Shown here: positions 14,642 to 57,657 of the stretch, in pieces
How the letters are laid out: every line of letters starts with the position of its first letter
Numbering within the stretch: position 1 is the stretch's first letter
DNA from: Euborellia annulipes
Taxonomy: Eukaryota; Arthropoda; Insecta; Dermaptera; Anisolabididae
Assembly (NCBI GenBank): GCA_023213315.1
Contig: JAKCPI010009497.1
Location: 1 to 64,000, forward strand
Direction of reading: 5' to 3'
DNA: 64,000 nt
Made by a program: the position numbers and the translations under genes
The notes under the pieces: model-generated
Database searches by the model: none
What the model was told of the DNA's origin: nothing
Seen by the model: only the letters and a program-made list of their open reading frames with translations

Positions 14642-20840
<6,199 letters not shown>

Positions 20841-26100: not shown

Positions 26101-28632
26101 ATTGGCCTCTTGTCTTCCGTCTCTATCGTGGCCCCTTTCTTGCTATTGGATTTCTTTTTTTAATGGGAGTTAATGTTTATGGTTGGCGCAGCTCCGGAGT
26201 CAACCATGTTCTTATCTTCGAATTGGATCCTCGAAATCATCTATCTGAACAAGTAATGTATTCATATATACGTGGGAAGTTCAATAAGTAATGTAAGACA
26301 TTTTTTTTCTGAAACAGAGGCTGTTTTATTCAGCATTCAAATACACCATGTTATTCCTCAATCTTTTAGCTACACAACATAATCTCCTCCATTCAATACT
26401 ACGGCATTACGCCACCTTAAAGTGAGGGCATGTATGACTGCACGGTACCATTCCATTGGTTGATGTTGGAGAGATCTTCATTGGGTCAAACAGATGAAAA
26501 TCCGACGGTGCGAGATCGGGGCTGAAGGGTGGATGAGGAAGAACAGTCCACAAGTCTTCGTACCCGAGAGGAGCTCACAAAACTTCAGTGAACTGTTCTT
26601 CCTCATCCACCCTACACCGATTTTCATCTGTTTGGCCCAATTAAGAACGCAATCCGTGGGACGCACTACGAGAATGATGAAGCACTTATTGATGCAGCAC
26701 GACGTTGGCTCTGACATCAACTAGAGGAATGGAACCCTACAGGCATATGGGCCCTCACTTCAAGGTGGCATAAAGCTAGGCATTGAATGGAGATTACGTT
26801 GAAAAATACTATTGTGTAGCTAAAAGATTTGGGTGTATTTGAATGATGAATAAAACAACCCCTGATTCAGAAAAAAATGTGTTGGATTACTTATTGAGCT
26901 CCCCTTGTAATTGAACAAATTTTAGAATGTTTTTTAAAATAACTTAAAAAGCGACCGACAGAAAGAAGTTATTTTGGTTATCCTATTGACTTGGTATCTT
27001 GAGAAGAGAGAGATAAAAAGTTCGTATTTATTTTTTGTATTATATTAATAATAGTAATTCCTTTTCTAGGATATCATGGAGCTGGCAGCAGCTCTGGGAG
27101 TGGTTTGGGCTCTCAGTGTTCTCTGTTGTCTCTATTCCCAAGGCCTGGGAGTCTCGTCTTATGCACATCCATTCATTTTGCACATTTTACTTGCTCTCTT
27201 TCTTCTTAATCCCACAAGGACATGTCGTCATGCAGCACGTTTTTGGGCTTTAAAGGTAGATCTCTAATTTTTTTTTCTCTATTATTTGGATAGAACAAGA
27301 GTCTACTTACTTTTCTGAGAACTGGTGAAAAATATTCAACAAGTTTAGATTAGTCTTAACAACAAAACCACGCGGATATTAAATCATAGAATTCAAAGAG
27401 TACTAACGTGTTTTTTGACTTAATAAACTGTTTGCCCTTGTCTGCGCGTTCTCGAGATATTTGAAGAATTTATATATCAAGGGAACAGGTGGTCGAGGAC
27501 ATGACTCATGGGTCAAAAACACTTATAACTTTTAAGCTGGTTTTTAGATTATTCTCATTATTATACTAAGGCGTGGTTAAATATTCCTTGCTTTGTATTT
27601 GCAGATATTATGTCGGATCTTCCTTGCGCCGGCATTTCGCGTTCAGTTTGCCGATTTCTGGGTGGCAGACCAACTGAATTCGTTATCAGTGCCACTAACT
27701 GATCTCCACTTCACCATTTGTTTTTATGCTCGTGGCAGTGGAAAAGAAGCTGAGGATACATGTCTTGAGGCTCCTTGGGCCATGGCTTCTAGAGCCCTGG
27801 TAGCAGCCCTGCCAGCTTGGTGGCGAGCTACTCAGTGTCTACGCAGATACCGCGACAGCCGAGAGGCATTTCCGCATCTAGCTAATGCTGGCAAATACGC
27901 CTCTACTCTTCTCGTTGTCATCACACTCGCATTCTATCATCAATACCAGGTATCTATTTCTCTTCATTTTCTTCTAATTATTTTTATTACGAAATTTCAT
28001 TCTTTTAATCATTTTTCCAGAGTCCATGGCTTTTTTATGTTTGGCTTATCACTGCGTTGGGAAACGCTGCAACCGCCTATACTTGGGATGTTAAAATGGA
28101 TTGGGGCCTTTTAGAAACAGGCCATCCACAATTGCTACGAGATGAAACTGTCTACGCTTCGGCTGCTTATTATTATTTTGGTATTATTGAAGATTTGGGC
28201 CTCCGATTCGGTTGGGTGGCGGCTGTCGCGGCTAACGAGCTTGGTTATATTCATTCCGATTTATTACAAACATGCGCAGGCCCTTTAGAAGTTTTTCGAC
28301 GTTTCATATGGAATTTTTTCCGTTTAGAAAATGAACACTTAAACAATTGTGGAAATTTCCGTGCCGTTCGTGATATAAGCGTTGCTCCTTTAAACGATGG
28401 TACTTCAGATTTAATTGATATTATTCGCATGATGGATGAGCCAGACGGGGTAATTATTAAGAGATCAAGGCAAAAACACAACAAAGCAGCAGCAGCAGCA
28501 GCGACAGCTGTGCTAACTGAAGAGGGAATGGCCACTTTAAGTTCTCAACCTCAACCTCTTCATCCTCGGAGCCTAGCATACGCTCTCAAACATCTCACAT
28601 TCCATTCTGAATCTACAATAGATTTTAATTAG
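23163..28632 (+). CDS. XPR1: Xenotropic and polytropic retrovirus receptor 1 homologue, phosphate exporter
   Basis: Eight exons (23163-23231, 24978-25131, 25255-25508, 25749-26013, 26080-26252, 27070-27255, 27605-27949, 28021-28632) give 685 residues; human XPR1 has 696. XPR1 is the plasma-membrane inorganic phosphate exporter regulated by inositol pyrophosphates. The N-terminal SPX domain (about 1-160) starts [20 protein letters not shown], and contains [19 protein letters not shown] and the basic KILKKHDK that binds inositol pyrophosphate. Then come several membrane helices and the C-terminal EXS domain: [45 protein letters not shown] and [20 protein letters not shown] followed by [12 protein letters not shown]. 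The C-tail has an alanine run. Intron 1 holds a LINE relic and intron 5 a mariner MITE. Confidence 0.97.
23738..24237 (-). pseudogene. LINE reverse-transcriptase C-terminal relic
   Basis: On the minus strand, broken frames read [22 protein letters not shown] and then [20 protein letters not shown]. This is the C-terminal end downstream of the reverse transcriptase domain in RTE/Jockey-like non-LTR elements. A stop and a frameshift interrupt it. The element's 3' end, GATGCCGAAAAAGACCTTAA, is shared with the tRNA-derived SINE at 47728-47875. It lies in XPR1 intron 1. Confidence 0.7.
24276..24533. repeat. Fold-back repeat with GAAAC module
   Basis: Arms share AAAGAATTTGATTTTCG, TAACTGTGGTTTATTT and GTACAATTCAGCTAAGATTA. 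One arm has ACCTGAAGAAGTGACCGAAAC; the other has the inverse (GTTTCGCCCACTC..TTCTTCAGGTAC). It lies between what look like two parts of a SINE in XPR1 intron 1. A one-armed relative is at 55050-55140. Confidence 0.6.
24590..24715 (-). repeat. tRNA-derived SINE head (copy)
   Basis: The minus strand reads GCCCGTGACCCGTGGCTCAG, then AGAGAAAACATTAATTTC, then a box B-like TACGCTTCCCGTCCC and ATTTCATTTG. The copy at 47728-47875 has the same order with better preserved sequence. Confidence 0.5.
26271..26907. mobile_element. mariner-type MITE
   Basis: This 637-bp element in XPR1 intron 5 has inverted ends (CGTGGGAAGTTCAATAAGTA and CAAGGGGAGCTCAATAAGTA on the other strand), flanked by TA. Subterminal arms extend about 140 bp inward (TTAGCTACACAA.. 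and inverse). The interior is itself an inverted repeat around CTGTTCTTCCTCATCCACCC. No transposase frame survives. Confidence 0.8.
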
Positions 28633-47299: not shown

Positions 47300-50200
47300 T
47301 TATTTTGAAGGAGGGGGAGCTTCTTCATCTGTGTCTTCAGAATCGAAGACATGATCTCTACTATTTTCTGCTCCAGATTCTACAGATTTGGCTCTTTGAT
47401 GGCCTTTACGTCGGGGTCGAGAAAAAACTCGACTCTCTTCGCCGGTATTGCGAAATGAAATAAGTGGATAAAGTGCACTACGTAAACTCCAAAAAAGTTT
47501 AGGGAATAAAATCTCCTGTTGAGCAAGTAATTGTTTTGTACGATGGCGCTCTTTTGGTGCTTCAAAACATGCTGGGCAATTTTCAGGAATAATTGGAAGA
47601 CCACGAGACTCAGCAAATTGCCTAAGCGCTTTCTCGCGAACGTAAACAAATGGCCTGGAAATATAGAAAATATTAATAAATAGATCATACACGGTGACCA
47701 CCAACGAACTAGTTGATTTAAATTATTTAATTTATCTAAGGTCTTTTTCGGCAGCTAAGGCCATTTAGACCCCATCCCTATTTAGTAGCCAAATGAAATG
47801 GGACGGGAAGCGAAGCCGGGGACCCTAGGCAGAGGAAGCTAATGTCTTCTCTCTGTCCCTCGGGTCACGGGCATTTTATAAATAAAAGATTGATAGAAGA
47901 ATGAAATAAAAGATATGTTTTATTTTGAAAGCTGTAAACAGAAGTTTCGAAATTAGTTATAGTTTTTCCAATAGGCTGCACGCTTAAACAAATTAACATA
48001 CCATTTGTTTTATCTTTTATCATTCTTTAATTAATTTTTAAATCTGAACTTCTTTGGTGCAGGTGTGAATAAATTTCCTTTTAAAGTTTTGATTTTTTTT
48101 GATCCGATCTTCGAGAAATTTATTTTTTGGTTCCGTTTTGTTAGTCATTAAATAAATATTGTATATTTTGCAATGACAATTAAAAATAATACTGTTAATC
48201 TTGTATTCTAACAATTAATCGTCCTGATGAAGGTCGTGATTTGCGACCGAAACGTCAACGATTAATAATTAGATAGAAGTATTTTATTTAATTTCTTGGC
48301 TGCTACGTTTTCTATTTCCAACGTAAAAAAAGATTTTTGTTTTTTTTTTTGTGTGGTGTTTAATTTTTTTGGGAGTATTTTTTAATTTTCCATTTTATAT
48401 TAGTTCCCGATTAATCCTACATATTAGTAAATAATTTTATATATTCGTAATTTTTAAAAATTTATTAAGATTCTTCCTTTTTAATTAGAATTTTTATTTT
48501 TATTAATTAATATCGGCGGCATATGAAAAAATTTACCTTATGACACGCAAATCGCGTTCCTGAACATAATAATGCGCTTTCATTGAACGAAGACGTCCAT
48601 TATGAAATGTGGACATAAGAAATGATTCGGCCAGATCATCTAAATGTTGACCGAGAGCAAGAACATTGTAATCCCCTCGACGAGCTGAAGCGTATAGACG
48701 ACCTCGTTTTAACCGACTACAGAAAGAGCAAACACTACTGCACGATGCTGCCGACTTAGCTTGTTCCAAAATTCCTAGAAAATTTATATTTATGTTAGAT
48801 AAGAGTGAGAAAGTGCTAAAATGTTTTTTGATTTCTTACTTTGACGTTCATAAGCATAAGGAACACCTAAGGAATTCAAGTATGGAATAAGAGGGGATGG
48901 GTCATAAGCTGCACTTCCAGGATCGACGGTAGCTGCTCCAATTTCAAATCGGATTCCTAATTTTGATGCTGAATAACGTTGATATTGTCGAAGAGTGTGA
49001 AGTAATGAGAGAGAATCTTTTCCACCCGATAAACAAACTAAAATCCTGTCGCCATCTCGAATCATTTCAAATTCTTGGATCGCCTAAAAATTTAAGCCAT
49101 AAGGTAGATATATTAAAAATAAGGTGTGGAGTCAGATCTTAATTAAATAAATAAAAATTTATTGGAATAAATAAATGTGTCTAGATGTTTCGTTTGGGTT
49201 TATATGGCAGCAAATACTGAAAAATTTTTAAAAAAGAAACAATATTAATTTATATATACAGTATTAAGAGAAAAGATACAGTGTATATATCTTTATAAAA
49301 TATTAAGGTGCTTCAGGAGGGCTCATTGAATCTAGTCCAAAAGTACTGAGGAATTTTAAAGTATTTTTTTTTAATTTTTTTAAAAATTAACGGCCAAATA
49401 GTTCAGTACTGTTGCAAAAGATGGCAGCCTAGTCTAACAGCCGACATTATCAGATAAATCAATGAAGTCAGTGGCTGTATTTCTATAGACAGCAGAAGGA
49501 GCAGGTGCAGCCAAAAACAAAAGCCTCCGATTTAATACAATTTAATGAGACGTTTCGGGTGAATTTCATCTCCCCATCTTCAGTCCTTCAAAATTGTTAA
49601 AAGTCTCGGAGTTGGTCAATAGGGCAATACATGTAAATTTATTTAGTGAGAATAAATAAATATGGCGATGGCCCACATCGCCAAAACATATGATACATAA
49701 ATTTACATTGACCTACCTATTGACCAACTCCGGGACTTTTAACAATTTTGAAGGACTGAAGATGGGGAGAATAAAATTCACCCGAAACGTCTCATTAAAT
49801 TGTATTAAATCGGAGGCTTTTGTTTTTTGTTTTTTTTTTTTATTATCAGATAACTATCCTATATTTATATATTTTATGCTGTTATAAATGATACATAATA
49901 ATATATATTAACTATACATTATGAAAAGATCAACGAAAATTAAACAAATACATGATTTTAAATATAGCCCTACCATCCTGCCATCTGTTGGCAAATTTTC
50001 GTAATAGTTGGGCTTTTTGGCTAAATTTTTAAGACCCCTAACTCCATCTTATCGGCAAAAACATGGGAACAGCTTTGCCTTCCGAAGTAAAATTCGTAAA
50101 TTATTGCCATAGTGTATGATAAATAGAAAATACAGCAACTATTTTCAAATTTAGACCTAATAAAGAAAAAAATGATCAGAGTAATATTTAGATTTAAATA

Positions 50201-53200
50201 TTATTAATACCTCAACTGCAGGCTTCCAAATCGTTTTAGGAGGACAATGCCACTGTACTAATCCCTTCGACGTTGTGGATATTTCTGAAGATGTAGACTT
50301 ATTATTAGCTTTGATTCCATTTTTTGCAGGGCATGTATTATTTGTTTCTATTGTCGTCTCTAAATCAGGGCAGGTCATATTAATTCCAGAATCATGAGAG
50401 CTGCTTGTAGTGTGAGCCCGGACTCCATTTTTTGAATTAGTAACTCCATTCGAAATGTTATTTGCATCACAAGCTAAAACTTCGGTAACAATTCCTCTCA
50501 ATTCACTAGCCATTCCACGTGACACTTCTACGAGATATTCAGCAACATCAGAAGCAGAGACTGAATCACGATCTTGTCGGGATCGAGAACTAGATTCAAA
50601 ACCATCGCTACTGAGAACATCTTCTACAGTTGTTATCACTTCTCGAATTTCGGATTTAATTTCAGTAGCCAATTCCTTTAAATAATAAATAAATATATTA
50701 GTAAAATTAAATGGGGAAAATAATTATGAAAGGTGTTACCTTTGTTACTTCTTGAACGTAAGCTTGAAGATCTTCTGTTGGCTGAGGGGAATCTGGTTCA
50801 CTGAAGCTGGAAGAAGATTGTCTTGGCCTTAACGGAGGTTGAGGAGATGTCGCTGCACGTAATGGGAATTCAATTTCAGTGCAACTCATTATTCGCGGCC
50901 GAGAAAATTGTGATCTGTAAAGAACATGATTTAAAATAATGTCTTGTTTATATTTTATGAAAATAAATAGATATCTTACCCTCTAATAATCGAATCGGAA
51001 ATCAATCCTGGAGTTAGTGGTCGCTGAGGTGAGCCAGGCGGCAGAGATTTTGGAGATGGATAATCTATAGAATCTTTTGAGTTGTTTAATAGATTTTTTG
51101 GAGATAAATCCCGTGAACAATGGAGTTCATTATTAATATTAATAGGTAAACTGTGTGATTCACTTTCATTATAGCTCAATTGGCGAAGTCGAGAAACTGC
51201 AAAATTGCTTTCCTTGGAATTAGAAAGCAGACCAGAGCCTAGGCTAGAGCACCGCGGTCGACCTACGAAAGGAATAGGACTAGTAGTGCCTGGCTCAGGA
51301 GTAAGACTGAGATTTCGTGGAGATCCATGGTAGCCAATTGGTTCAAAAGGAACAGTGTGTTTCACCTATAAAAAAAATGTGTCATGTGAATTTGCTGTTC
51401 TCTTTAAAGGTGGAATTCCGAGAAACGCGACAGAGCGTCACTGAGGCCACGACAGTGACGCGGCGGCAGAGCGACAGTAGATGTCATGTGTAAATAAATG
51501 GAAGGCTATTCGAGTGTTGCGACACAGACGCCGCGGCACTGCCGTGACGTCATTGCCGCTCTAGAAGCAGCGACACTGCCGCGTTTGTTCTCGATCGGTC
51601 GCTGCCGCGGAGCGTTGTCATAACAAAATAAAAAACAAAATGGCGGCCTTCAACCAAAATGAAGATGAAATATTGATAGAATTCGTTTCTTAATTTAGGA
51701 CAATTGGTCGCGTTTGTTTACTGACGCCGACATCGGAAGCCACAAGCGCGACACTACCGCCGCGACACTGTCGCGGCTGCAGTGACGCTATTGAAGCTGC
51801 CACTCTGTCGCGTTGCTCGGAATTCCACCTTAACAGGAGGAAATTTGATAAGGGAAAATAAAATAATGTTAAGAATTTATTTATGGGATTAAAAGAAACG
51901 AATTACTATTATTATGGGATTTTTAATTATAGACCACAAATTATTTATTAAAAAATATAAATACTGTACAACGTTTCGGCTGCTTATTCTGCAGTCGTTT
52001 TTAAGTACTGTACACGTGCTCCTACTCGAGCTAACTAACCTCTAAGGGAAGAGCATTTTATATACGACCTCAGCGCCATCTACAGTCATTCCCATGAAGT
52101 TAGACACAATTATCAAAGCAAGTGTTTACATAACATCATGCTTTTTATGTAAATACTTGCTTTGTTGATTGTGTTTAACTTCATGAGAATGAGTCAGATG
52201 GCGCGAAAGTTTGTGTCTAACTTCATAGGAATGATTGTAGATGGCGCTGACGTCGTATATAAAATGCTCTTCCCTTAGAGGTTAGTTCACTCATATCGTA
52301 GTAAGTGTACAGTACTTGAAAACGACTGCAGAATAAGCAGTCGAAACGTTGTAGAGTATTTATATTTTTAATAAATAATTAATAACAAAATGTGATGAAA
52401 ACTCCCATAATAATAATACAAACCACAAAAGCTTTAAAAACATACGTGATAAATTAATTACTATCAATTTTTACAATTACAATTTTTTTTGTGCATTGAG
52501 AGAGGCCCTTAAAATGTCCCATTTCTACAGTCTGATGAAGAATTTATGTTAGTACCTTAGATGAATGGCCAAGAAGCAAATCTTGAGCTTCAGAAGGCAA
52601 CATGAACCAACGCAGAGGCTCAGTTCGCTCATCAAATAAGGCTCCTTGATCTGCAAGTGGGAATCTCTGAGCCATCCGACGAGCTCTATTAAATATATTC
52701 CGAGCAGTATGAAGTAAATCCGAATAGTCGTGAGGTGGCAATGAGCCTTGGCCAGAAATGCGACGCTCATGAACTGACATTTTACCATCGGTGTAAAGGA
52801 TAGCACCAAGCCAACGACGTTCCCTGAATACTGAATTGCTATGATGTCGCCATTCACCAGTCTAAAAAATTAATATTATAATAAGAGAATTTGTTAGCAT
52901 ATGTTGAATAATTATTTCCAAATCATTCAAATTTAACTTACTTCAGGATTAAGTATGTATTGAGGTAGCAATTTCCATGCCTCTGTAGCTACCATTTTCA
53001 CAGCTTCGAGTATAAATGCTACTTCTGCGTCGCTCATAAAATAAGGTAGAGATATACGAGCAAATCCAGGTCTTAACATTTCATAAGGACTATGCTCTTC
53101 TCGTCGACGCAAATGACGTCGATCTAATCTCGAATCCTCAAGTAAAATCTCTTCATATTGATTAGCAAGGGCTGGTCCGATACCTGTAAAAATATTCTTT

Positions 53201-56200
53201 TTAGATATGGGTGGGCTAACTTGTTTTTATTATCTATAATTAAACTTACCCAATAGATCAAGGGCATAAGGACCTGCACAAGCACAACCTCCACGAGCCT
53301 GAATTCCAAAAACATCATTAAGAACAGCGCAAACAAAATTATGATGAAGAAAAGCGCCTCTTGGGTGTCTGACAAGAAAAGAAAATACAGGCAAACGACG
53401 AGTAGATATTGCAGGGCCTAATAATACAATCTCGGGGATATTTCTCATATGTGAAACTACCATCCTAAAAATTAAATACCGGTATATAATAAATAAATTA
53501 AAGTAAAAATATTTTGATATTAAAATGATAAATATTTACTTGGAAATGCGCTCTTCTCTAGACATAATATTTTGAACACCTACTGCTTCTTTAAGTTGCA
53601 TAGCTAATCCGGCACGCACCGATTCAACAACAGCTGCTGTTCCTCCTTCTTCTCGAAGTTCCGTATCCTAAAACATAAAAAGATTCTAGTCTTACTCCTT
53701 CTATTTAATAAAATCGTTTGGCTATAAATATTTCTCACCTGCAGGTACCTATGAGAATCTCGGGAGACGAAAAAAACGGTTCCTCCTCCACAACCATTCG
53801 GTACCGTATTATTGAAAAGAGATTTTTTGGCAATTAAAACACCTGAAAAAATTAAACACCAATTAATAAGTGCAAATGAGATGGTCAAACTTCAAAATTT
53901 ATGAAAGGTATATATCATGATGGGCTTTAAATTAATTAATATTAAATTTTTTTTTTGTAAGTCAAAGCTAATGAAAATATACCTGGAGTTTGAACACCGC
54001 CAATAAACTTATGGACTGAGAAAAACATGGCGTCCTTGGAGACAGCGCGCTCATCAACGCCAGGAAGCACGGGGTTCATGTCCAAGGGCACATATGGCGC
54101 TGTTATTGGATAAAAAAGAAATTCATACTTTAAAAAAAAATCTTAAATTTATTATTTTATAAATGAATAAATTATTAAAAGTAAAGTCCTCAAAGAACTT
54201 GTGTGTCAGTAATAGTTATTGCCTATCCAATAAATATTTCTTGTTTAAAAAAAATCTGGTGTGTCTGGTCGCACAGCACACAACTTTCTCTTACCAAAGG
54301 TAAGAGAAGTTTGCTAAAAAATTTAAATAACTTTTCATAGGCCTACACCAAATAATCAACAATAGATGTAACAATTTTATTCTTTTAATAATAATAAATG
54401 AAATATTTATTTAATCCTTATCCTTTATACGGTAGAGTCAACGTGTCCTTAGAAGAAATGTTAATAAATCCCTCAGTGAAGTACAGTCGGTGCCACTATT
54501 AACCGGCAGCCTTAGTTTGAGTTTAGACAACCAAATCCAATTTGTAAAATCATTTTTTGAATAGAATTGAAGTGGAATTGCTTCTTTTGAGATAACACAC
54601 TCGACATTTAAGAATTAAGGCTCAAATCTCCCACCTGTTGGTTAATAGTGGCATCGACTGTACACAGCATCCGTTTTATATTCATATAGTAGGGAAATGA
54701 TATACCAAGTATAATTTAATATACCTGCGGTGGCATAATCCCAAAATGCTAGAGCCCCGTGTTGGTGCAATAGAAGCGTAGTGGCCACATCGTCTGCTAA
54801 TACGCCAGTGACATTACTAGCTGCACTAAAGCATCCTATCATGGTAAGACCGAGATCTCTATGTGCCACTAATTGACGTTCTAAATCTTCTAGATCAAGA
54901 TGTCCTTCTCGGGTTTCTGCTATCCGTATAATCTGTAAAATATATATATATATATATAAGCTTATATATACATTTATTTGTATCAATTGTATTTTTTTGG
55001 TATTAAACTTTCAAAGTTGATTTTAGTATTTGGTATTAGGCTCACAAAATACTTGTTTTGGTTTAACTGTGGTTTATTTGTAAACTCATTCTGTAGTATT
55101 CCTCAGGTACAATCCAGCTTAAGATCACAAAAAATGTTGCATCCCATCTGAAGATATGAGTCTTATTAAGGGTTATATGCCTTTTTTTTAATGATATTCT
55201 AAAAAATTTATTTCTTTATTTGCCTATTTATGAGAATTATCAATTGTGATGAGTATAAAGAGAACTATTCGACGTAAAGAGAACTATTAAATTAAAATAA
55301 AACAAATAGAATTTTCTTTCTTCTTTCATGCTATTTAGAAGTTGCAAAACTAAAAATAATTCAGTTGATTGGGAGCTCTTAAATTAGATACGTTCTATCA
55401 ATAAACTTATAAATGTGTTTGATAAACAAATTTTAAATATCAAAAAATATTTGATTACGCTCTTAAAACGAGTGAGAGGAAGCGAAATTGAAAGATTTTA
55501 TGGATATGGCTGGAGTGTTAAAGAAATTAAATAATTTTAGAGTGGTCAGAATACGTATAAAATAAAATGATTTATACCTCAGCACCAGTTTCTCTCCATG
55601 GCAAGAGATTTGAATGATGCTCACAAGGTCCCACGAAAACTATCGGTGGTTGCTCCAAGGCCAGTGCATGCAAAAGTTTATGAACTGCCCCTGTACACCC
55701 ATGTCCAGCAAAAATGACGGCATCGTGTTCTCCGGCGTGGCATGCATTTCGGAAAATATCTCGAGCTTCATGTCTGTAAAAATATTAAAGACAAATTATT
55801 TATTCATAGAGTATCAGTTTAATATCTTGATGGACTCCGCTTTATTTGAAATTTTTTAGAAGCAGGTGTCAATTTAGATTCTGCGTTTCTATCGTATTAA
55901 ATAATTATTTTTCAAATTATTTCTGGGTGGTCTAAAAGAATCTATTTAAGTGTCTCAAAATAACTCGATAGGTAAATATTTTTTTTTTTTTTCTGAGGGC
56001 AGGACACCGACTTCTTATTACACAACATGCAACGAAAACGAATGAATCTTAAAATAGTTTTTAATTAAAAATAACCAAAAGACGTAGGCAAAGTAATCAA
56101 CCAGAGAATTTACTATTTTAATATATAGTTTTGCAAAGAACAAAGTTGTAAAGAATTTCTGTTGACACCTTGTAGCGATAAATTAAAAATATAAAAAGAG

Positions 56201-57657
56201 GAATGGAATGGAAGAAAAAAAAAAATACTACTCGGGTTGAAAGGAAGAGAAAAATGAACTAAGCTAATTTTATGTTAATTGTATTTTTATGTCTAAAACA
56301 AAAAAAAATATTTCATATTTAAATTTGCTTATGAGTAATTATATAATATGGTATTTTCCCTTCCTAGAAATCGCTTGTTATTCACTGGGAACACTTGGTC
56401 ATTTGCCCAGAACCTACGTTAATAAAGGGAAACTATTAGGAAAAATACTTCCTTGAAGGTGAAACATCCCCTTTCAAGAAAAGGAAAAACAGTACGACCT
56501 AAGTAACAATTTGTAATTATTAGGGATTTTAAGTATATGATATGAATGATATTACTTGGGCGAATCAGGTATATTATTATTGAACCTGTCTGCTCTTTGT
56601 CTAGGTCTCATTCGCCCGGGAAGCCAAGCGTCACGCGTGAGGGATCAGACTTATTCTCCTGATCAAATTTGTTATTTATTAACTGGTTTTTGAGGAAGAA
56701 ATGTTGAATCTATTCGCCTGGATTACAGCCTTTTTAAAATTTGTTCCGTTCTGCAGACTAGCTCAAAGGAATAGAGGATTTCCCTTTGAAGGGAATAAAA
56801 CGATCGTGTGTAGTTTCACTTCAATTTGCTCACTTTATTTACTAAAAATAAATTTATGAGAAGATTTCAGTAACATAAGTCGTGGTACTGTCCGTTGCAT
56901 GAATAATGCCAATCATTAAAACTTAAAGGTGGAATTCCGAGCAACGCGACAGAGCGTCACTGACGCCACGACAGTGACGCGGCGGCAGAGCGACAGTACA
57001 TGTCATGTGTAAATAATGAAAGGCTATTCGAGTGTTGCGACACAGACGCCGCGGCACTGCCGTGACGTCATTGCCGCTCTAGCGGCAGCGACACTGCAGC
57101 GTTTGTTCTCGATCGGTCGCTGCCGCAGAGCGTTGCCATAACAAAATAACAAACAAAATGGCGGCCTTCAAACAAAATGAAGATGAAATATTGATAGAAT
57201 TCGTTTCTTAGGTTAGGACAATATGTCGCGTTTGTTTATTGACGCCGTCATCGGAAGCCACAAGTGCGACACTACCGCCGCGACACTGTCGCGGCTGCAG
57301 TGACGCTGCCGCTATGTCGCGTTGCTCGGAATTCCACCTTAAAAGTAAATTAGGAGGAGTTCTTTTCCTAACGAAAGATAAATCAAACTTTCAGAGAACA
57401 ATATGGGTATACAACCTGTCTGGAATTGCTGCTCAAAATTTTAACTCAAGAAGATTTTTAATTCGATTCAGAAATCATAATTATTTCCTCCAATTTTCAA
57501 TATTTGATAATAAATTCTTACCTAAAAAGTGTTGATTGAAGAGAAGTAATTGAAGTAGTTGTGTGTGTATTGCCATACGAAGGTAAAACTTCTTTTAAAA
57601 CAAAATCTTCAATGAATTGTAAAGAACGTCCTGAAGCTGCATAGTCGCAATAAACAA
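47300..57657 (-). CDS. Fused class-V aminotransferase (cysteine desulfurase-like) and TtcA-like tRNA thiolase (5' end not found)
   Basis: Fifteen exons (57522-57657, 55578-55773, 54725-54932, 53983-54099, 53739-53842, 53540-53667, 53250-53464, 52942-53183, 52556-52861, 50980-51365, 50740-50914, 50211-50675, 48840-49083, 48537-48774, 47300-47654) join in frame to at least 1170 residues; numbering starts at the first mapped codon. Residues 1-450 form a PLP fold: CDYAASGRSLQFI, YGNTHTTTS, FVGPCEHHSNLLPW, FSVHKFIGG with the PLP lysine (about 211), and a cysteine loop RGGCACAGPY (about 357-359). Residues 550-885 are a Ser/Pro-rich linker. Residues 885-1170 are TtcA-like: P-loop CLSGGKDS, CSFCSRLKRG, LALGQHLDDLAESF, PIIPENCPAC. 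Bacterial TtcA makes 2-thiocytidine-32 in tRNA using an iron-sulfur cluster. The TtcA fold begins in one exon (KPAVE) and continues in the next (AIQEFEMIRDGDRILV), so the fusion does not rest on a single junction guess. The start exon is unknown. Confidence 0.88.
47728..47875 (-). repeat. tRNA-derived SINE with LINE-like tail
   Basis: The minus strand reads GTGACCCGAGGGACAGAG, GACATTAGCTTCC, a box B-like CGGCTTCGCTTCCCGTCCC, ATTTCATTTGGCTAC, GGGGTCTAAATGGCCTTAGC and finally GCCGAAAAAGACCTTAGATA. The last part is the same as the 3' end of the LINE relic at 23738-24237. It lies in the intron between the last two exons of the desulfurase-TtcA gene. Confidence 0.7.
48205..48275 (+). repeat. Best single hammerhead-like module
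   Basis: The plus strand reads AATTAATCGTC, then CTGATGAAGGTCGTGATTTG, then CGACCGAAACGTCAACGATT. AATTAATCGT pairs with ACGATTAAT (stem I), and GGTCG pairs with CGACC (stem II) between CTGATGA and GAAA. A third helix is nearly absent, and one extra base sits before stem II, so activity is uncertain. It lies within the intron 47655-48536. Confidence 0.5.
49303..50090. mobile_element. TTAA-type MITE (copy 4) with nested fold-back
   Basis: It starts TTAAGGTGCTTCAGGAGGGC; the other end (CTTTGCCTTCCGAAGTAA) has decayed. Inside is a copy of the AACCCGAAACGT-family fold-back (49503-49837). It fills most of the intron between the linker exon and the first full TtcA exon. Confidence 0.65.
49503..49837. 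repeat. Fold-back repeat, AACCCGAAACGT family (copy 2)
   Basis: Arms start GGTGCAGCCAAAAACAAAAG and run inward to GAGACGTTTCGGGTGAATTT; the inverse arm has CTGAAGATGGGGAGAATAAA followed by TTCACCCGAAACGTCTC. GGG..CCC stems form the hairpin. It matches the copy at 19705-19982. Confidence 0.7.
51408..51830. mobile_element. PIF/Harbinger-like MITE (copy 1)
   Basis: This 423-bp element has ends AGGTGGAATTCCGAG and inverse, flanked by TAA. It is much more GC-rich than its surroundings. A 3-bp TAA duplication suits PIF/Harbinger. Inside, 51640-51693 encodes MAAFNQNEDEILIEFVS then a stop, which resembles the start of the MADF/Myb-like accessory protein of that superfamily. It lies in the intron 51366-52555. 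Confidence 0.75.
51905..52420. repeat. GTACTGTACAACG repeat family (full copy)
   Basis: Two arms begin ATTATTATGGGATTTTTAAT and inverse. Both contain a GTACAGTA.TT and GAAACGTTGTA module around a GACTGC..GCAGTC hairpin, and the inner parts share ATGGCGCTGACGTCGTATAT and GTGTCTAACTTCAT. It lies in the same intron as the PIF/Harbinger MITE. Confidence 0.7.
54484..54660. mobile_element. Tc1/mariner-type MITE, third family
   Basis: Ends CAGTCGGTGCCACTATTAAC and its inverse (GTTAATAGTGGCATCGACTG) are flanked by TA. Length 177 bp, in the intron 54100-54724 of the desulfurase-TtcA gene. No coding sequence. Confidence 0.8.
56937..57339. mobile_element. PIF/Harbinger-like MITE (copy 2)
   Basis: This 403-bp copy has ends AGGTGGAATTCCGAG and inverse, flanked by TAA. 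It is about 90 percent like the copy at 51408-51830 by eye, and has the same short open frame (57158-57211, MAAFKQNEDEILIEFVS). It lies in the first mapped intron of the same gene. Confidence 0.75.

Follow-up and report, generated by a model that had tools for sequence, protein, structure and literature searches.

The stretch of DNA considered here is a window of 64,000 nucleotides from the dermapteran insect Euborellia annulipes (contig JAKCPI010009497.1, assembly GCA_023213315.1). Its minus strand carries nearly all of what is supported, from sequence, as a single intron-rich nuclear gene of 16 exons and 15 introns encoding two domains of different kinds. From the N- to the C-terminus, the product is composed of a SufS-group cysteine-desulfurase-like domain (domain 1), a Ser/Pro-rich linker of about 330 amino acids, and a TtcA-like PP-loop domain (domain 2). 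This protein could be a fused bifunctional sulfur-transfer enzyme in which cysteine sulfur passes, as a persulfide, to an RNA-directed Fe-S PP-loop thiolase, all within one protein; we hold the chances of this reading to be about even. The domain 1 family was otherwise seen in this analysis only as free-standing bacterial proteins.

Fifteen exons lie on the minus strand between positions 57657 and 47300 of the window, with AG acceptors in 15 of 15 cases and GT donors in 14 of 14. Once spliced, they give 1170 codons that begin with VYCDYAASGRSL and contain a sole stop, the terminal TAA, so the single frame proposed for them in the initial annotation is borne out. The gene is not complete in the window, however, and a further exon (exon 0) had been missed in that annotation. 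No first exon was found within the 64-kb window; exon 0 is located outside it on the same contig (C6685:92312-92057), 34,399 bases of intron away from exon 1. Its 3' end reads ...KLVKYIDENIIGKNTTFSGPYGRRK, and the in-phase splice to exon 1 gives SGPYGRRKVVYCDYAASGRSL, which adds ...SGPYGRRK-V ahead of exon 1 and restores an N-terminus typical of the bacterial relatives (for instance, LVETIRSSIIGNDFAVPGPFGPRRVTYADYTASGRSL). Counted from the first ATG of exon 0, the predicted protein has 1256 amino acids (aa). The contig (92,344 bases) stops 32 bases upstream of this ATG, so the start codon is not fixed and an earlier one is possible; given this edge and the codon score of exon 0 (-0.26 bits per codon), the first 55 residues or so are uncertain. 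The exons, all but the first in window positions on the minus strand, are the following.

Exon 0, C6685:92312-92057, aa 1-86; outside the window
Exon 1, 57522..57657, minus, aa 86-131; first in-window part of domain 1, VYCDYAASGRSL
Exon 2, 55578..55773, minus, aa 131-196; domain 1, EHHSN motif
Exon 3, 54725..54932, minus, aa 197-266; domain 1
Exon 4, 53983..54099, minus, aa 266-305; lysine K296 for pyridoxal phosphate (PLP), codon 54010-54008, in FSVHKFIGG
Exon 5, 53739..53842, minus, aa 305-339; domain 1
Exon 6, 53540..53667, minus, aa 340-382; domain 1
Exon 7, 53250..53464, minus, aa 382-454; cysteine loop RGGCACAGP, with C442 (53286-53284) and C444 (53280-53278), the latter aligned with SufS C364
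Exon 8, 52942..53183, minus, aa 454-534; arginine aligned with SufS R379
Exon 9, 52556..52861, minus, aa 535-636; C-terminal part of domain 1, LRWFMLPSEA, near the end of the stand-alone bacterial relatives
Exon 10, 50980..51365, minus, aa 637-765; Ser/Pro-rich linker
Exon 11, 50740..50914, minus, aa 765-823; linker
Exon 12, 50211..50675, minus, aa 824-978; remainder of the linker and lead to domain 2
Exon 13, 48840..49083, minus, aa 979-1060; PP-loop SGGKDS, aa 997-1002 (49029-49012)
Exon 14, 48537..48774, minus, aa 1060-1139; first CXXC, C1075 (48730-48728) and C1078 (48721-48719)
Exon 15, 47300..47654, minus, aa 1139-1256 and TAA (47302-47300); second CXXC, C1165 (47578-47576) and C1168 (47569-47567)

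In Pfam, the in-window product matches Aminotran_5 (PF00266, 3.7e-37, residues 1-362) and then ATP_bind_3 (PF01171, 6.3e-12, residues 906-1073), the two families that the initial annotation had named for a domain search and in that order; no further family appears at E <= 0.001. The motifs listed there, namely the PLP lysine in FSVHKFIGG, EHHSN, the cysteine loop RGGCACAGP, SGGKDS and the TtcA cysteines, are all found again in the spliced product. In molybdenum cofactor sulfurase (MOCOS) a MOSC domain comes after a NifS-like one; this enzyme is ruled out, since Pfam shows only the two families mentioned and no MOSC domain.

When a profile built from 13 family members was compared with PDB sequences, SufS-group cysteine desulfurases ranked first (8d8s, 5.5e-44). 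Domain 1 was aligned with 30 bacterial relatives (31 rows, positions according to E. coli SufS; region L030 was left out, its YADYTTSGR having been missed by the search pattern). The residues H123, D200, S223, H225, K226, G277, T278, R359, G361, C364 and R379 are conserved in the 31 rows, and these include the PLP lysine (K226), the catalytic cysteine (C364) and the substrate arginines (R359 and R379). All rows also share an extra cysteine two residues ahead of the catalytic one (RGGC[AS]CAG). Domain 1 is like the SufS group in its PLP lysine, histidine, aspartate, two arginines and catalytic cysteine, but differs from it in the low identity with E. coli SufS (26%, as against 38-48% with the 30 bacterial relatives), the lack of Gln203, the extra cysteine of the CxC loop, a C-terminal extension and the fusion itself. 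In the tree of domain 1 this protein branches off close to the family's base, on a long branch, and its placement is unsure. We infer that domain 1 would mobilise cysteine sulfur as a persulfide. The initial annotation had assigned it sulfur mobilisation, and the conserved SufS residues and the neighbours of its relatives argue for this part of the claim.

The NCBIfam scores of domain 2 are 187.7 bits for TtcA, 54.1 for TilS-N and 38.6 for TtuA, in keeping with the TtcA-like assignment of the initial annotation. Besides this best match, domain 2 shares with TtcA, the tRNA C32 2-thiolase, the SGGKDS motif and two CXXC pairs (C1075/C1078 and C1165/C1168), aligned with C122/C125 and C210/C213 of E. 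coli TtcA, and these pairs may hold a [4Fe-4S] cluster. The passage of one review that names a TtcA cysteine gives Cys222 (PMC5372745), which fits no cysteine of E. coli MG1655 TtcA. In an 11-row tree, where branches are long and five of the eight inner ones are open, domain 2 pairs with a Clostridioides TtcA (82/84) and falls outside the TtuA-like clade (99/98). In the PDB, TtuA comes nearest in sequence (8.2e-8), and none of the matches listed there is a chain named TtcA. The placement of domain 2 with TtcA, not with TtuA or CTU1/NcsA, is tentatively supported. Bacterial TtcA, as described in part of a review, is a separate protein fed by IscS, unlike the fusion reported here (PMC5372739).

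CTU1/NcsA is also a PP-loop tRNA thiolase and belongs to the same wider family as domain 2. The CTU1 model TIGR00269 matches two other contigs, C25120 and C2444, under its cut-off in both cases. Of the CTU1-type exons, the first is nearest to NcsA and to a [4Fe-4S] U34 thiolase structure, TIGR00269 and NcsA are nearest to the second, and the third contains zn-ribbon_14; no NcsA or zinc-ribbon match is listed for domain 2 in Pfam or NCBIfam. The candidate identity of the fused gene as CTU1 was rejected, since domain 2 scores as TtcA and the NcsA and zinc-ribbon features that set CTU1 apart lie in separate exons on C25120. With these exons in the assembly, U34 thiolation has its own gene. The three exon translations of C25120 and C2444 are identical and on opposite strands, which may reflect either allelic contigs or a duplication.

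Relatives of domain 1 occur in nine of 100 Actinomycetota genomes (E <= 1e-50, the centre genome being counted among the nine). A search with the Streptantibioticus protein gives matches in 210 plasmid records, and in 52 of these a single place covers 80% or more of the query. The neighbourhoods of 31 bacterial regions were compared, from 22 of the 40 plasmid matches listed (spread over species), Streptantibioticus and eight other actinobacterial genomes; neighbours were counted by tblastn and each count includes the region that supplied the query. These relatives are stand-alone PLP enzymes recorded as "aminotransferase class V-fold" (for instance, those of Streptantibioticus, L024, Rhodococcus, L025, and Aminobacter, L029); they resemble domain 1 in the key residues and the CxC loop, and their long forms are colinear with it from GPYG to LRWF.LP. 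A divergent Lrp/AsnC gene is located just upstream in 15 of the 31 regions, a persulfide-dioxygenase-like gene directly downstream in nine, a TauE sulfite exporter after the latter in five, and an ATC hydrolase gene two genes downstream in three. The Aminobacter dioxygenase scores 553.5 bits in its dioxygenase part against the Blh sulfur transferase/dioxygenase model, below the cut-off of 625, and in region L030 a metallo-beta-lactamase (MBL)-rhodanese protein lies about 1.2 kb downstream. These neighbourhoods suggest that the domain 1 family makes persulfide from cysteine.

Two arrangements recur. In rhizobia, a divergent Lrp gene, the class V PLP enzyme and a persulfide-dioxygenase-like MBL protein stand together, joined by TauE in three of four cases, in what looks like a module for the breakdown of cysteine to sulfite. 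In Rhodobacterales, an operon groups an ABC transporter, the PLP enzyme, a flavin adenine dinucleotide (FAD) oxidoreductase, ATC hydrolase and an M20 aminoacylase, and perhaps serves to take up and degrade a thiazoline or a derivative of cysteine.

Rhizobial set: L029:5351-8289, L050:4325-8192, L061:4341-8148, L062:4345-8152
Rhodobacterales operon: L026:750-10642, L048:1-9651, L049:1-9619

Relatives were also sought in viruses. Two single-protein scans of viral contigs gave nothing, and a scan with an alignment yielded a single stand-alone relative of domain 1, with 29% identity (L075:7920-9266). The latter is a frame of 449 codons on a 306-kb contig of a viral collection, in which HHSN is kept and the CxC loop pattern is absent. 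Seventeen phage records match, with 26-29% identity in the ten listed, and were set aside as too distant for the domain 1 family.

In the mechanism proposed here, domain 1 would remove the sulfur from cysteine and carry it, as a persulfide, on C444, the second cysteine of the RGGC[AS]CAG loop. The long and presumably flexible linker would let this persulfide reach the PP-loop domain, either of the same chain or of the partner chain of a dimer. Domain 2, with a putative [4Fe-4S] cluster on its CXXC pairs, would adenylate a base using ATP, and the cluster would relay sulfide to the adenylated base; sulfur would most likely be inserted into RNA, with tRNA C32 as a first guess for the target, by homology. 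The overall interpretation in the initial annotation is supported in part, as regards the gene, the order of the domains and their family placement; that the transfer stays within one molecule, that tRNA accepts the sulfur and that C32 is the position are steps that we infer. There are precedents for the parts of this scheme. The ergothioneine synthase MES of Caldithrix also joins a cysteine desulfurase domain to a sulfur-inserting domain, the two cooperating, but its desulfurase is C-terminal and IscS/NifS-like, its partner is a metallopterin domain, its product is ergothioneine and it belongs to anaerobic prokaryotes (PMC9516567). In the YrvO-MnmA pair a PP-loop tRNA thiolase receives its sulfur directly from a dedicated desulfurase; as a review passage describes it, this system differs in being made of two proteins, with an IscS-like desulfurase and a thiolase of the MnmA type acting on U34 (PMC5372745).

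Several observations weigh against the gene model or against its reading as a fused RNA thiolase, and they concern the linker, the two domains and the bacterial relatives. With respect to the linker, exon 10 alone scores +0.035 bits per codon, inside the range of the control (97 open frames from introns, each 58 codons or longer, median -0.29); the domain exons 1, 4 and 5 (+0.05, +0.01 and -0.09) fall in this range as well, and the longest of the intronic examples noted stays open over 198 codons, more than any single linker exon. Jointly, exons 10-12 reach +0.137 bits per codon, just over the top intronic open frame (+0.133), and their 342 codons contain no stop in the used frame versus 22 and 38 in the other two. 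That the linker exons keep phase and have no other open frame than the used one speaks against two separate genes. One gene with both domains, as the initial annotation had it, is supported by splice sites, frame, coding statistics and homology.

The same gene could nevertheless yield two overlapping products: a stand-alone desulfurase, through retention of intron 9 or early polyadenylation, and a TtcA-like protein from an internal start, the full-length fusion being minor or absent. Exon 9 ends close to the end of the bacterial proteins and read-through into intron 9 meets a stop after three codons, so that a separate desulfurase isoform is possible. AATAAA or ATTAAA motifs are present in introns 9 and 12, but such motifs are common across these AT-rich introns (6.1 per kb also in those among exons 1-9) and have no discriminating value. 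With exons 10-12 in phase and only the used frame open, this alternative is given a rather low probability. As regards other features of these introns, an element of about 410-420 bases whose inverted ends are GGTGGAATTCCGAG is present twice, in intron 9 (window 51409-51829) and in intron 1 (56928-57338); it looks like a miniature inverted-repeat transposable element. A 96-codon open frame near C6685 83776 (minus strand), inside the 34-kb first intron, resembles an exon of another protein and has no match in Pfam.

With respect to domain 1, its NCBIfam score of 118.4 bits does not reach the SufS cut-off (TIGR01979, 475.1), and it is therefore classed as SufS-like, not as SufS. SufS Gln203 is replaced by Thr here and is Gln in none of the 30 relatives, and SufS positions 224 and 279 are Val and Ala here and Pro in all 30 relatives. 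Domain 1 might no longer be, or never have been, a cysteine desulfurase; its substrate would then be another compound, such as selenocysteine or a derivative of cysteine, and the fused protein would serve another pathway. The lack of Gln at position 203 in all 31 rows, model scores far under the desulfurase cut-offs, and the Rhodobacterales operons that place relatives beside ATC hydrolase and an amidohydrolase-type gene are consistent with this. However, the catalytic cysteine, the PLP lysine and both substrate arginines are kept throughout the alignment and relatives neighbour persulfide-dioxygenase-like and TauE genes, and we consider this explanation unlikely. As for domain 2, its 187.7 bits miss the TtcA equivalog cut-off (NF007972, 272), a cut-off that a Clostridioides protein annotated as TtcA (220.8 bits) likewise fails to reach.

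With respect to the bacterial relatives, domain 1 works there apart from TtcA: tblastn found TtcA in none of the 31 regions, where persulfide oxidation neighbours occur in nine, and no fused relative was present among them. Some match to the TtcA model exists in six of the nine actinobacterial genomes with a relative (best, 71 bits); its cut-off, which is strict, is reached in none of the nine and in one of 14 control genomes. One of these matches (L042) is TtuA-like (228.7 bits). The actinobacterial relatives, which are the nearest by identity, seldom have a sulfur neighbourhood. Ten actinobacterial neighbours were compared with Pfam; three fit a sulfur/redox theme, namely a sulfocyanin-like gene and a divergent TauE in L065 and SelR in L071, and the other seven do not. 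The nearest relatives thus carry the weaker signal, and the catabolic interpretation rests mainly on alphaproteobacteria.

The bacterial evidence suggests persulfide production from cysteine, yet also a role without TtcA, and a fused protein with a non-RNA acceptor therefore retains a real share of the probability, though a clearly minor one. Domain 1 would then keep its function in cysteine breakdown and the PP-loop domain would adenylate and sulfurate a small molecule or a protein, or handle persulfide. In favour of this, the bacterial neighbourhood is one of cysteine and persulfide breakdown without TtcA, some PP-loop enzymes, LarE among them, modify substrates other than RNA (PMC9283937), and the review passage on the 2-thiocytidine at tRNA position 32 (s2C32) assigns it to bacteria and archaea and does not name eukaryotes (PMC5372739). 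Against it, the best match of domain 2 is the tRNA-modifying TtcA, with both CXXC pairs present. In a krill transcriptome study, one transcript is annotated as TtcA and could be a CTU1 (PMC3714250).

Bacterial contamination, mis-assembly or a decayed copy could also be invoked. The assembly (903 Mb, 25,949 contigs) does contain bacterial-type contigs, C4091 (L001), C14219 (L003) and C2389 (L005), which may be Acinetobacter-like. They carry TilS and TtcA genes, the latter free of introns and, in C2389, split across two frames. However, these TtcA copies are merely 32-37% identical to the fused gene, whose own contig carries 15 introns in an unbroken frame and exons of two further genes.

Window 15402-15857, minus: TGS1-like (Methyltransf_15) exons
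Window 27581-28632, plus: XPR1-like (EXS) exons

Contamination was rejected for this contig, and an artefact of any of these kinds is very improbable. In a search of the own genome, in which 16 candidates were scored, the bacterial-type TtcA copies and a 27% match on C14882 were the only matches off C6685, so the fused gene looks single-copy within that limit.

Similar fused proteins may be annotated in other invertebrates, a point that is given no weight here. No laboratory-tested example of a desulfurase-TtcA fusion was found, and no published description of one was found in the titles and abstract openings of the open-licence literature; passages of PMC8300815 contain nothing on fusions.

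Both halves of this protein are of known kinds, and their union in a single polypeptide of an intron-rich genome would allow one protein to carry sulfur all the way from cysteine into a thiolated product. For the bacterial relatives, a PLP family named in records only by its fold, the neighbourhoods offer a function, the release of persulfide in cysteine breakdown. It is tentatively possible, with the balance of probability on the other side, that an animal lineage possesses a self-sufficient RNA thiolase, in which a cysteine-catabolic desulfurase of bacterial type and a TtcA-type Fe-S PP-loop domain, united in one protein, lead from cysteine to a thionucleoside (s2C32 or other) not known from animals. 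If this were true, a thionucleoside would be predicted in a lineage for which the review passage mentioned above lists no s2C32 (PMC5372739).

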